In this document: positions 2,173-4,954 of the stretch, one piece after another
Layout: each line of letters opens with the position of its first letter
Position numbering within the stretch: the first letter of the stretch is position 1
Source of the DNA: an uncultured Fidelibacterota bacterium
GTDB lineage: Bacteria > Fidelibacterota > Fidelibacteria > Fidelibacterales > Fidelibacteraceae
NCBI GenBank assembly: GCA_937862595.1
Contig: CALMFL010000311.1
Location: forward strand, 1-35,211
Direction: 5' to 3'
DNA length: 35,211 nt
Program-made: the position numbers and the translations under genes
Notes under the pieces: model-generated
Told to the model about the DNA's origin: nothing
Databases searched by the model: none
What the model saw: only the letters and a program-made list of their open reading frames with translations

Positions 2173-2685
2173 ATGGGACATATTTTTGACCTCATTGTTC
2201 ATAACGGCTTCATTCTTCTGATCCCGGTTTTTGTCTGGAATTTTCTGCTTGCTTCAAAACTGCCGCCGCCCTATGATCCCGTGCGTTTTGATGAGGGCAT
2301 TCCAAAGCCATTGCTCGTCGCAGAAAGCGTGTTCCGGACGATCGTCTTTCTTTTGCCGCTTCTGTTCCGCATCGATCCCGCCGCGCAAAGCGGGAAAGCC
2401 GGCCTGATCGTTTACGCCGCGGGGATCCTGCTATATTTCGCTTCCTGGCTAGCGCTGATCTGCCTGCCCGAACGGGTCTGGCGAAAACGCGTCCTGCTCT
2501 TTACCGCCCCGGCCGTAACGCCACTGATCTGGCTCGCGGGCATCGGCCTGACGGCGGACGCCTATTATTTCAATCTGCCCTTTCGCCACTGGCATTACCT
2601 GCTTCCCTGCATCGTCTTTACCGTTATCCATACCGCTCACAGCTTTTTGGCGTTCCGTAAAACAGCCGGAGGAACAAAACAATGA
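2173..2685 (+). CDS. Hypothetical integral membrane protein
   Basis: 170 aa, about 5 hydrophobic segments; ends with a short overlap with the next gene. Confidence 0.6.
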   Translation: MGHIFDLIVHNGFILLIPVFVWNFLLASKLPPPYDPVRFDEGIPKPLLVAESVFRTIVFLLPLLFRIDPAAQSGKAGLIVYAAGILLYFASWLALICLPERVWRKRVLLFTAPAVTPLIWLAGIGLTADAYYFNLPFRHWHYLLPCIVFTVIHTAHSFLAFRKTAGGTKQ

Positions 2686-3470
2686 ACCGCCTGTCTTCAC
2701 TTCTTCTTTTAAGCTCTCTTATGGCCGTATTTTCGTTTGCGGAAACCCGTATCATCGCTCACCGCGGGTTCTCTTCCGCCGCGCCGGAAAACACCCTGGC
2801 CGCCTTTAATAAGGCCATTGAAACCGGAGCGGATTACTTTGAGCTGGACGTCCATCAAAGCAGGGACGGCAAGCTGGTCGTCATTCACGACGGATCCGTG
2901 GATCGCGTCAGTTCGAACGGCATGACGGGAAAGATCGCTGACATGGATTTCCGTGAGATCCGCAGGGTCCGCGCCGGTTATCCCAAAAAATTCGGAGAGA
3001 CCTATAAAAACGTACGCATTCCTACGCTGAAGCAGTCCCTGCGTGCGGCCAGGGGTAAGATCAGGGTCTGCGTGGAAGTCAAGGCGCCGGACATCGAGGC
3101 GGCCGTGCTGAAAACGGTCCGCGCGCTGAATATGGAAAAGGACGTCATCATTTTCTCCTTCGGGTACGACATCCTCAAAACCTTCCGGGAACTGGACGCG
3201 GAGATCCCGCTCCTCTACCTGCGCAGCGTCGTGGACAGCACCGTCATTGCCGATGCGGCGGCCATCCGCGCAACCGCGATCGGCGCGGGCCGTCCTACCG
3301 TGATCACGCCCGAAGTGCTGAAATCGGTCCGCGCGAACGGCATGGAGCTCTGGCAGTGGACCGTCAACGATCCCGCCGACATGCAGCGCTTGCTGGACCT
3401 CGGGGTCGACGGCGTGATCACCGATCGTCCGGACCTTGCCCTGGAACTGAGGGATAACTTGTCCCGCTGA
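2682..3470 (+). CDS. Glycerophosphodiester phosphodiesterase (secreted)
   Basis: Signal peptide, then IIAHRGFSSAAPENTLAAFNKAIETGADYFELDVHQSRDGKLVVIHDGSVDR...WTVNDPADMQRLLDLGVDGVITDRPD: canonical GDPD motifs. Confidence 0.95.
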   Translation: MNRLSSLLLLSSLMAVFSFAETRIIAHRGFSSAAPENTLAAFNKAIETGADYFELDVHQSRDGKLVVIHDGSVDRVSSNGMTGKIADMDFREIRRVRAGYPKKFGETYKNVRIPTLKQSLRAARGKIRVCVEVKAPDIEAAVLKTVRALNMEKDVIIFSFGYDILKTFRELDAEIPLLYLRSVVDSTVIADAAAIRATAIGAGRPTVITPEVLKSVRANGMELWQWTVNDPADMQRLLDLGVDGVITDRPDLALELRDNLSR

Positions 3471-3493
3471 AGGTATTGTCCGACTTGCTCGCC

Positions 3494-3681
3494 TCATCCT
3501 GAACGGCCCTTCCGGGGTCAACCCGTCAAAACCCTTCCACTGTCACCCCGAACTGCCTCCTTGTGTCATCCTGAACCGCCCCCTCGTGCGTCATCCTGAA
3601 CCGCCGTTGCGTCACATCCCGAACCACCGCCTGTCACCCTGAACCACCTCTGCGTATCATCCTGAACTTGTTTCAGGATCT
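3494..3681. repeat. Array of degenerate TCAtCCtGAAC half-sites ending in a full palindrome ATCCTGAA-CTTGT-TTCAGGAT
   Basis: Half-sites near 3494, 3543, 3566, 3591, 3612, 3634 and 3657, mostly spaced 21-25 nt; perfect 8-bp stem at 3659-3666/3672-3679. Confidence 0.85.
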
Positions 3682-3718
3682 CCATAATCTGATAAAAACC
3701 TTATGTATTCTCTCTTTT

Positions 3719-3734
3719 TGTGACCGCTGTCACA
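3719..3734. promoter_or_regulatory. CRP/FNR-family-like operator TGTGACCGCTGTCACA
   Basis: Exact TGTGA-N6-TCACA palindrome upstream of the GIY-YIG gene. Confidence 0.55.
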
Positions 3735-3780
3735 GCAATATGTTTTCAATTTCGTTAAATTACATGGAGATCCAAAATCG

Positions 3781-4134
3781 ATGAAAGACGCTTACACTTA
3801 TATATTGACAAATAAAAACAGAACGACACTTTACATTGGCGTGACAAATGATCTTGAAAGAAGAATATTTGAACATAAAGCGAGAAAAGGGTCGGCGTTT
3901 TGTGCAAAATACAATATTGACATACTCCTTTATTTTGAACATTTTTCTTTTATGGCGGAAGCCATCGCCCGGGAAAAACAGTTAAAGCGCTGGCATAGAG
4001 AGTGGAAATGGAACCTGATCAAAAAAGAAAATCCGGAGTTGAAAGATCTTTCTGAACCCTGGTTTGATCGTTCCATATTAAAAGATATTAAAGCATATTC
4101 AATGAGTGATGAGGGCAAGATTGAAAATAAATAA
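3781..4134 (+). CDS. Single-domain GIY-YIG nuclease family protein
   Basis: YTYILTNKNRTTLYIGVTNDLERRIFEHK...AKYNIDILLYFEHFSFMAEAIAREKQLKRWHREWKWNLIKKENPEL: GIY-YIG family pattern; AT-rich compared with flanks. Confidence 0.93.
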   Translation: MKDAYTYILTNKNRTTLYIGVTNDLERRIFEHKARKGSAFCAKYNIDILLYFEHFSFMAEAIAREKQLKRWHREWKWNLIKKENPELKDLSEPWFDRSILKDIKAYSMSDEGKIENK

Positions 4135-4153
4135 AGTTTTCTTTGAATAAATG

Positions 4154-4205
4154 GGATCCTGAAACAAGGCTGAAACAAGTTCAGCCTGACGTTGTTCAGG
4201 ATGAC
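4154..4205. repeat. Inverted copy of the TCATCCTGAAC/TTGTTTCAGGATC palindrome, interrupted by a nested hairpin
   Basis: GGATCCTGAAACAAG + GCTGAAACAAGTTCAGC + CTGACGTTG + TTCAGGATGACA; reverse complement of the element at 3657-3681. Confidence 0.8.
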
Positions 4206-4234
4206 ACGCCTTAATTTTCGATAAGGCCCGCGAT

Positions 4235-4813
4235 CTAATAGCTGTTGAATTTGTCTTCCCAGCACAAGATCCGCCATTTTCCGTCCGCATCTTTGCGGAA
4301 GCGGAATTCGGCATCGCCGACCAGCGTGTAGTAATCCCCGAGTGTCAGCTGATAGGAGCGGGAAATGTCCGCAATGTTGGCGGTCGCAAACCATGAATCG
4401 TCTTCCAGCAGGATCTCATCCCCGCTCATTTCGTAATAGGCGCTGTCCAGCGTGGTCTGCCAGAGCAGGTCAACATAATTGAAGGCGTTCAGCAGGCGCC
4501 CGGTGGTGCGCAGTTCGGTGTCGCGCATCCAGGAATCGTAGTGCCCGGTCCCGCTCGCATCTCCGGGCTGGTAGAACACAAAGACGAACTCGCTGTCCAG
4601 CAGCATGGAGTACATCAGGCTGTCCCGGTAAATATAGGCATAGCGGAAATTGTGCAGCACGTCGGCCGGCCGTTCCATGTCCGGGCGGTAAATGGAGTTC
4701 CCTCCGGCCAGGTCCCCCAGCGTGGGCGAAAAAATATTCCTGCAGCCCGTGAAGAGCAGGATGGCGCTCATGGCAAAAGAAAACAGGATGGCGGTGACGT
4801 TGCGCGGTCGCAT
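4235..4813 (-). CDS. Hypothetical lipoprotein
   Basis: N-terminal signal with lipobox (SAILLFTGCRN), 192 aa; SNTF2-like C-terminal fold is possible but unproven. Confidence 0.7.
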   Translation of the reverse strand: MRPRNVTAILFSFAMSAILLFTGCRNIFSPTLGDLAGGNSIYRPDMERPADVLHNFRYAYIYRDSLMYSMLLDSEFVFVFYQPGDASGTGHYDSWMRDTELRTTGRLLNAFNYVDLLWQTTLDSAYYEMSGDEILLEDDSWFATANIADISRSYQLTLGDYYTLVGDAEFRFRKDADGKWRILCWEDKFNSY

Positions 4814-4831
4814 GCCCGAATATAGGAAGAC

Positions 4832-4873
4832 AATTTATCATTGACAAAGAACAATTGACAATTGACAATTCGT
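4832..4873. repeat. Heptamer array (CAATTGA)n
   Basis: caattta tcattga caaagaa caattga caattga caattcg. Confidence 0.75.
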
Positions 4874-4954
4874 GCCCCGGCAGGGTTTCGAAGAAGTTTG
4901 CTTGAATGCGGGGGGATTCCTTCATATATTTATTCCAACAAAGGGAACACAGAG

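Follow-up and report, generated by a model that had tools for sequence, protein, structure and literature searches.

The GIY-YIG nuclease gene in the stretch of DNA analysed here (the window, 35,211 nucleotides in length) lies between inverted palindromes of the CGTC REP type, and there is good support for a partnership between its GIY-YIG family and CGTC REPs. What we observed is an association across phyla, a matched stem class, co-occurrence of gene and palindrome, doublets in unrelated flanks, and orthologous sites both occupied and unoccupied. CGTC REPs, a superfamily including dRS3 of Neisseria and RPE-4/RPE-6 of Rickettsia, were defined by Di Nocera et al. in 2013 and 'apparently lack a dedicated transposase' (PMC3733652). 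We consider it rather probable that the locus is a gene-carrying REP unit and that the GIY-YIG protein is the dedicated partner of CGTC REPs, in an arrangement like that of RAYT and REPIN but with an unrelated enzyme. The gene family of the window is thus the best candidate to date for the partner enzyme that CGTC REPs have been missing.

The initial annotation had described an AT-rich GIY-YIG ORF of 117 amino acids between inverted palindromes, and this was confirmed by the ORF itself, its Pfam match, DNA folding and GC content. The left palindrome lies exactly where it had been placed (3657-3681), while the right one, given as 4154-4205, is better delimited as 4157-4207. The features of the locus are the following.

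3491..3656, + strand: degenerate half-palindrome array (TCATCCTGAACCGCC, TCATCCTGAAC-CGCC and variants), from repeat search, motif counts and direct reading
3657..3681, + strand: left REP palindrome TCATCCTGAACTTGTTTCAGGATCT with an 8-bp stem and a 5-nt loop, from direct reading and DNA folding
3682..3780, + strand: AT-rich leader from the left REP to the start codon, from direct reading
3781..4134, + strand: single-domain GIY-YIG nuclease of 117 aa, from Pfam, alignment and an AlphaFold2 model
4157..4207, - strand: right REP, an inverted copy with a second hairpin nested in its loop, from direct reading, repeat search and folding

The right palindrome consists of ATCCTGAAACAAG, a nested REP-like hairpin and then GTTCAGGATGAC; read on the - strand it begins GTGTCATCCTGAAC..., with GGCTGAAACAAGTTCAGCC as the hairpin inside its loop. 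The nested arrangement looks like one REP inserted into another REP. The family consensus is GTCAYNCTGAAYTYRTTTCAGNRTC, from which the left palindrome departs by an ATC tag in place of GTC, and the right palindrome carries the tag TGTC. Hairpin folding compared with shuffles gave z-scores of -3.9 for the left and -5.0 for the right palindrome. Allowing up to one mismatch, the window contains 8 occurrences of TCATCCTGAAC where 0.52 would be expected (maximum in 100 shuffles, 3), and 6 of these 8 sites fall within 3494-4204; the half-palindrome array is a decayed REP array adjoining the left end of the unit. The GC content of the gene is 0.35 compared with 0.548 for the window, with only 0.14% of 354-nt windows being lower. 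Two separate ORFs (2682-3470 and 4235-4813) neighbour the GIY-YIG ORF, and the genes flanking the locus sit on different contigs in relatives; about 47 nt of the right REP are matched at 88-98% in congeneric genomes. Also near the locus are a Fib_succ_major (Fibrobacter succinogenes major domain) protein at 1493-2161 and, at 4818-4874, a TTGACAATTGACAATT-type repeat, unrelated to the REPs, with many congeneric matches (84-96% over 26-50 nt).

By its sequence, the window protein is a member of the GIY-YIG nuclease superfamily with predicted DNA cutting activity. It matches Pfam GIY-YIG (PF01541) with an E-value of 4.9e-16 and 59.2 bits (curated cut-off 22.6), and this is its sole domain match, the HUH/Y1 domain (PF01797) being absent from it. 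The catalytic residues Y7, Y18, R28, E65 and N84 are all present and are invariant in 34 aligned relatives, and a partner-type motif, KRWHREWK, occupies residues 69-76. An AlphaFold2 model (pLDDT 88.9) places the K-x-W-X-R-x-W-K helix after the catalytic Glu. Structure search found UPF0213 BH0048 (1zg2), Slx1 and the UvrC N-domain as nearest solved folds; with a best E-value of 8.6e-4 and poor superposition, it confirmed the GIY-YIG fold only.

A scan of 84,980 species genomes found 65 relatives, distributed over Neomarinimicrobiota, Dadabacteria, Bacteroidota, several CPR lineages, Gastranaerophilales, Elusimicrobia, TM6 and Alphaproteobacteria. The flanks of these relatives share one layout, namely an inward GTCA-tagged palindrome, the gene and a second inward palindrome, and the gene lies between matching CGTC-class palindromes in at least eight bacterial phyla. 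Under a fixed rule, inward palindromes were present on both sides of 34 of 55 close relatives and of none of 400 control ORFs taken from the same loci more than 900 bp from the GIY-YIG gene. With a looser hairpin rule, blind to stem class and applied to all loci of a larger set, 59 of 158 genes were bracketed compared with 2 of 479 controls (Fisher 1e-37). The left and right palindromes of one unit may differ in stem (ATGC versus ACCC), each being self-complementary. Among 30 distinct palindromes, collected with search patterns in which two stem positions were unconstrained, the unconstrained positions covary, with 20 both-side changes compared with 6.8 in shuffles. In Gastranaerophilales, the same REP-bracketed unit is found in different flanks, with identity beginning at the GTC foot.

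These data bear on the idea that the hairpins are terminators or mRNA-processing signals of the nuclease gene that recur elsewhere by coincidence. Although the hairpins do adjoin a gene, there are inverted copies upstream of the start codon as well, the control genes taken from these loci lack such bracketing, and many gene-less doublets with the same ends occur elsewhere; already contradicted by these doublets, the idea strikes us as very improbable. A phage-borne element was rejected since 50,697 phage records gave no match and 2.9 million viral contigs contained no stretch coding for KRWHREW. Two PLSDB records among the loci (NZ_CP119140.1 and NZ_AP026896.1, at L310 and L315; 2.17 and 4.94 Mb) carry the label of plasmids and have the appearance of chromosomes.

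Gene and palindrome also occur together at the level of genomes. The palindrome is present in 43 of 45 gene-bearing genomes at 2-145 copies each, while the same pattern read backwards is absent from all of them; in the two exceptions (loci L076 and L087), a CCCGGG palindrome takes its place on both sides of the gene. Within the phylum of the window, the palindrome occurs in 14 of 245 genomes, nearly all of them in two genera in which this gene type is found as well. In 201 Sphingomonas genomes, at least four copies were counted in 25 of 32 genomes with a WHR-type gene versus 28 of 169 without (Fisher 1.8e-11; medians of 13.5 and 0 copies, respectively), with genes found by a KQLK-x-WHR codon pattern that misses variants such as KRVK. 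All of these co-occurrence statistics ignore the relatedness of genomes. Several palindrome-rich genomes have no WHR-type gene detectable by that pattern, including G305 (194 copies), G298 (130) and G010 (31), and they are only partly explained by gene loss, relics, gaps in MAGs and the narrow search pattern. The initial annotation had named a lack of palindrome enrichment near the gene, or of co-occurrence, as grounds against its proposal; both were looked for, and the bracketing and co-occurrence counts did not refute it. It had also pointed to similar palindromes in unrelated phyla, correctly, though they had already been described as CGTC REPs (PMC3733652).

Since RAYTs are the enzymes linked to GTAG REPs (PMC3116915, PMC3733652), the palindromes might instead be mobilised by Y1/RAYT transposases with the GIY-YIG gene as a passenger. 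Yet 20 of the 50 genomes that have the palindrome show no Y1_Tnp match, among them genomes with 121-145 copies, and of 30 Y1 loci, each covering about 3 kb, only 1 contains a CTGAA palindrome. These counts largely refute RAYT/Y1 as the mobiliser, and we give this explanation scarcely any weight.

Genes of other GIY-YIG subclades lie between GTCA-tagged hairpins of other kinds, and residue X of the K-x-W-X-R-x-W-K motif tracks the stem. H at this position (WHR) goes with CTGAA, R (KRWRR..WK) with CCGG and N (WNR) with CCCG, while a GS motif (GSR) pairs with GCGA/GCGAG and L or I (WLR/WIR..KK) mostly with CTGAG. Relative to shuffles that ignore relatedness, the mutual information between X and stem position 5 had a z-score of 20, and that between W/G and position 4 a z-score of 30. 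Paralogues within one genome each keep their own stem: in G426, KRWHRQWK lies between CTGAA and KKWNRDWK between CCCGC palindromes, and in G481, KTWNRDWK is found with CCCG and KAWRRDWK with CTGACGG. The motif-stem code rests on more than one residue, since Aeromonas KKWRREWK is found with CCCGC, some KRWHREWK proteins with CCGGG or CCGAA, and four WHR-bearing Sphingomonas genomes (G406, G442, G356 and G327) have no CTGAA palindrome. A tree from which the motif had been left out offered only one to three supported independent pairs per trait; none of them was opposite in direction, and the result was not significant.

Twelve named records were also read. Before this reading, we expected the Neisseria gonorrhoeae relative to carry KxWNRxWK and to be bracketed by dRS3. 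Motif and repeat type held, with KKWNRAWK lying among GTCATTCCCGCG..GCGGGAATC dRS3 repeats; the bracketing expectation was only partly borne out because the nearest repeat on each side, within a dense array, points outward. Inverted palindromes on both sides were found for the Rhizobium CIAT894, Sphingobium, Sinorhizobium meliloti, Shinella, Aeromonas and Novosphingobium copies, those of Novosphingobium carrying a GTCG foot. A Planktothrix gene (KGWLREKK) lies among CTGAG repeats, and a Spirosoma gene (KGWRREKK) has CCGAG on one side. Among the 12 records, flanking palindromes were not found for the Photobacterium, R. tumorigenes and Sinorhizobium K101 copies.

The palindromes also form inverted doublets without a gene. 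Twenty such doublets from five Sphingomonas genomes, 88-106 bp in length, lie in unrelated flanks and have the same ends as the gene units; their length is near-constant within a genome (88-94 bp in G350 and G290, 94-95 bp in G280 and G298, 96-106 bp in G321). At a Sphingomonas junction whose flanking genes we read from sequence as mccA and mccB, four genomes show a gap of 5-8 bp and many others have a unit with GTCATGC at its start and GAC at its end. A genome with 57 palindromes and no intact gene (G476) retains a truncated GIY-YIG relic (L262) at this junction, and in G298, which is closely related to gene carriers, the place is taken by other DNA. Sphingomonas genomes carry up to seven GIY-YIG paralogues, some of them at the mccA-mccB junction common to many species; because the gene is often kept at one orthologous site, it seems itself to move rarely in this genus.

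GIY-YIG is a classic homing-endonuclease fold, and the strongest rival to a dedicated REP partner is a parasite of the doublets. A free-standing GIY-YIG homing endonuclease would target the REP doublet, cut empty doublets and be copied into them by repair with the REPs as homology arms, the REPs themselves spreading by other means. Such a parasite explains the bracketing, in that a gene between two intact REPs is what insertion into a doublet should leave, as well as the match of REP stem class to protein motif, and some palindrome-rich genomes do lack the gene. The family resembles free-standing GIY-YIG homing endonucleases in its catalytic domain and its compact gene in a mobile-looking unit, but differs from them in having no intron or intein, in being a single domain without a separate DNA-binding domain, and in being hairpin-flanked and found in many phyla. 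The window protein scored 21.3 bits with the NCBIfam group I intron homing endonuclease model (TIGR01453), far under its cut-off of 56.05. Moreover, the palindromes occur for the most part only in genomes or genera that have the gene, and homing leaves the spread of CGTC REPs unexplained, with no other enzyme linked to them either in PMC3733652 or in our Y1 searches. We therefore regard homing as an unlikely, if serious, explanation.

A host housekeeping role, in which a structure-selective nuclease comparable to Slx1 or the UvrC N-domain resolves or prunes REP cruciforms and so limits REPs, agrees with the nearest solved folds and with the stable orthologous position in many Sphingomonas. The KxWXRxWK helix sets the family apart from UPF0213, Slx1 and the UvrC N-domain, none of which is known to be REP-flanked. 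A patchy distribution with several copies per genome, the foreign AT-rich composition in the window, and a match of sequence class for which an enzyme selecting purely by structure would have no use all speak against this role, which we judge improbable.

In its own genome (a MAG of 1.99 Mb in 360 contigs, 87% complete), no full copy of the palindrome was found elsewhere at up to three mismatches, and the remaining TCATCCTGAAC sites have no palindrome and are mostly coding-like. With a full copy at one locus only and the other sites being non-palindromic, the palindrome is not a dispersed family there. Of the proposal that a GIY-YIG nuclease takes the RAYT role, the association, the REP-like nature of the palindromes and the position of the gene were supported, whereas spread within the source genome was not. 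Loci from AT-richer congeners have a GC content of 39-42%, which fits acquisition of the window unit from an AT-rich relative; judged from composition, the unit looks acquired in this way with no spread since. Other single-domain GIY-YIG genes of this genome (L002, L005, L006 and L007; contigs C175, C265 and C85) adjoin tmRNA, tRNA-Asp and tRNA-Ser genes, with tandem copies on C85 separated by a broken tRNA 3' half and a partial tRNA-Asp upstream of the gene on C265, which suggests a second lineage inserting at tRNA genes.

The palindromes resemble CGTC REPs (PMC3733652) in the GTC/TGTC tag at one end, the 8-9 bp stem beginning AT, the 4-5 nt loop and the short unpaired tail, as well as in being mostly head-to-head dimers. 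In the family, an unpaired CGTC/TGTC tag (GTCA; ATC in the left window copy) accompanies an 8-bp stem and a 5-nt loop, and as to the many copies per genome typical of CGTC REPs, 43 of the 45 gene-bearing genomes have 2-145 copies and the window's own genome a single locus. CTGAA stems and long GCGAG-type palindromes widen the range given in 2013, and a GIY-YIG gene is associated here whereas no associated transposase gene was found then (PMC3733652). Short-spaced inverted REPs in unrelated flanks, the mark of REPINs, are present in the five Sphingomonas genomes but not in the window's own. As with RAYT (TnpA-REP) and the REPINs of GTAG REPs (PMC3116915), a small nuclease gene lies between inverted REPs of the genome's own type, gene-less doublets are dispersed, and the gene site is often conserved. 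RAYTs are HUH/Y1 enzymes, by contrast, and the GIY-YIG protein has no such domain and shares no catalytic chemistry with them; it resembles RAYT in layout, not in family. A search of the open-access literature yielded no paper that connects GIY-YIG to REPs or to dRS3, nor any in which the core of the palindrome is printed. Given this open-access scope, the GIY-YIG-CGTC REP link is new only provisionally, and the palindromes themselves were already known as CGTC REPs.

For a dedicated REP partner, the most economical mechanism is that the enzyme cuts and spreads CGTC REPs. The GIY-YIG protein would recognise the REP, probably as a hairpin or as a cruciform extruded from the inverted pair, with the K-x-W-X-R-x-W-K helix reading the REP stem, and would cut at the GTC-tagged foot. 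Host repair or replication might then copy the unit elsewhere, and short gene-less doublets of about 90-105 bp, being REPIN-like, would be the non-autonomous form mobilised in trans. A nuclease that cuts hairpins or cruciforms is the simplest reading because the catalytic set is intact, the helix varies with stem class, and the units end sharply at the GTC foot. GIY-YIG enzymes hydrolyse DNA, with no joining activity known for them, so insertion would need host repair.

More tentatively, and with somewhat less than even confidence, we propose that the CGTC REP superfamily, from Neisseria dRS3 to Sphingomonas and the candidate phyla, was built and spread by GIY-YIG nucleases through hydrolytic, repair-coupled copying, with a residue-to-stem code in one helix. 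If true, this would be a new transposition-like mechanism together with an evolvable hairpin-specificity module. Should the code hold, hairpin specificity would be readable in proteins of about 95-120 residues. The 2013 survey raised the question of what mobilises CGTC REPs without answering it (PMC3733652); these repeats are both abundant and widespread across the phylogeny, and a concrete partner gene, having conserved catalytic residues and palindromes of matching class, makes the question directly testable.
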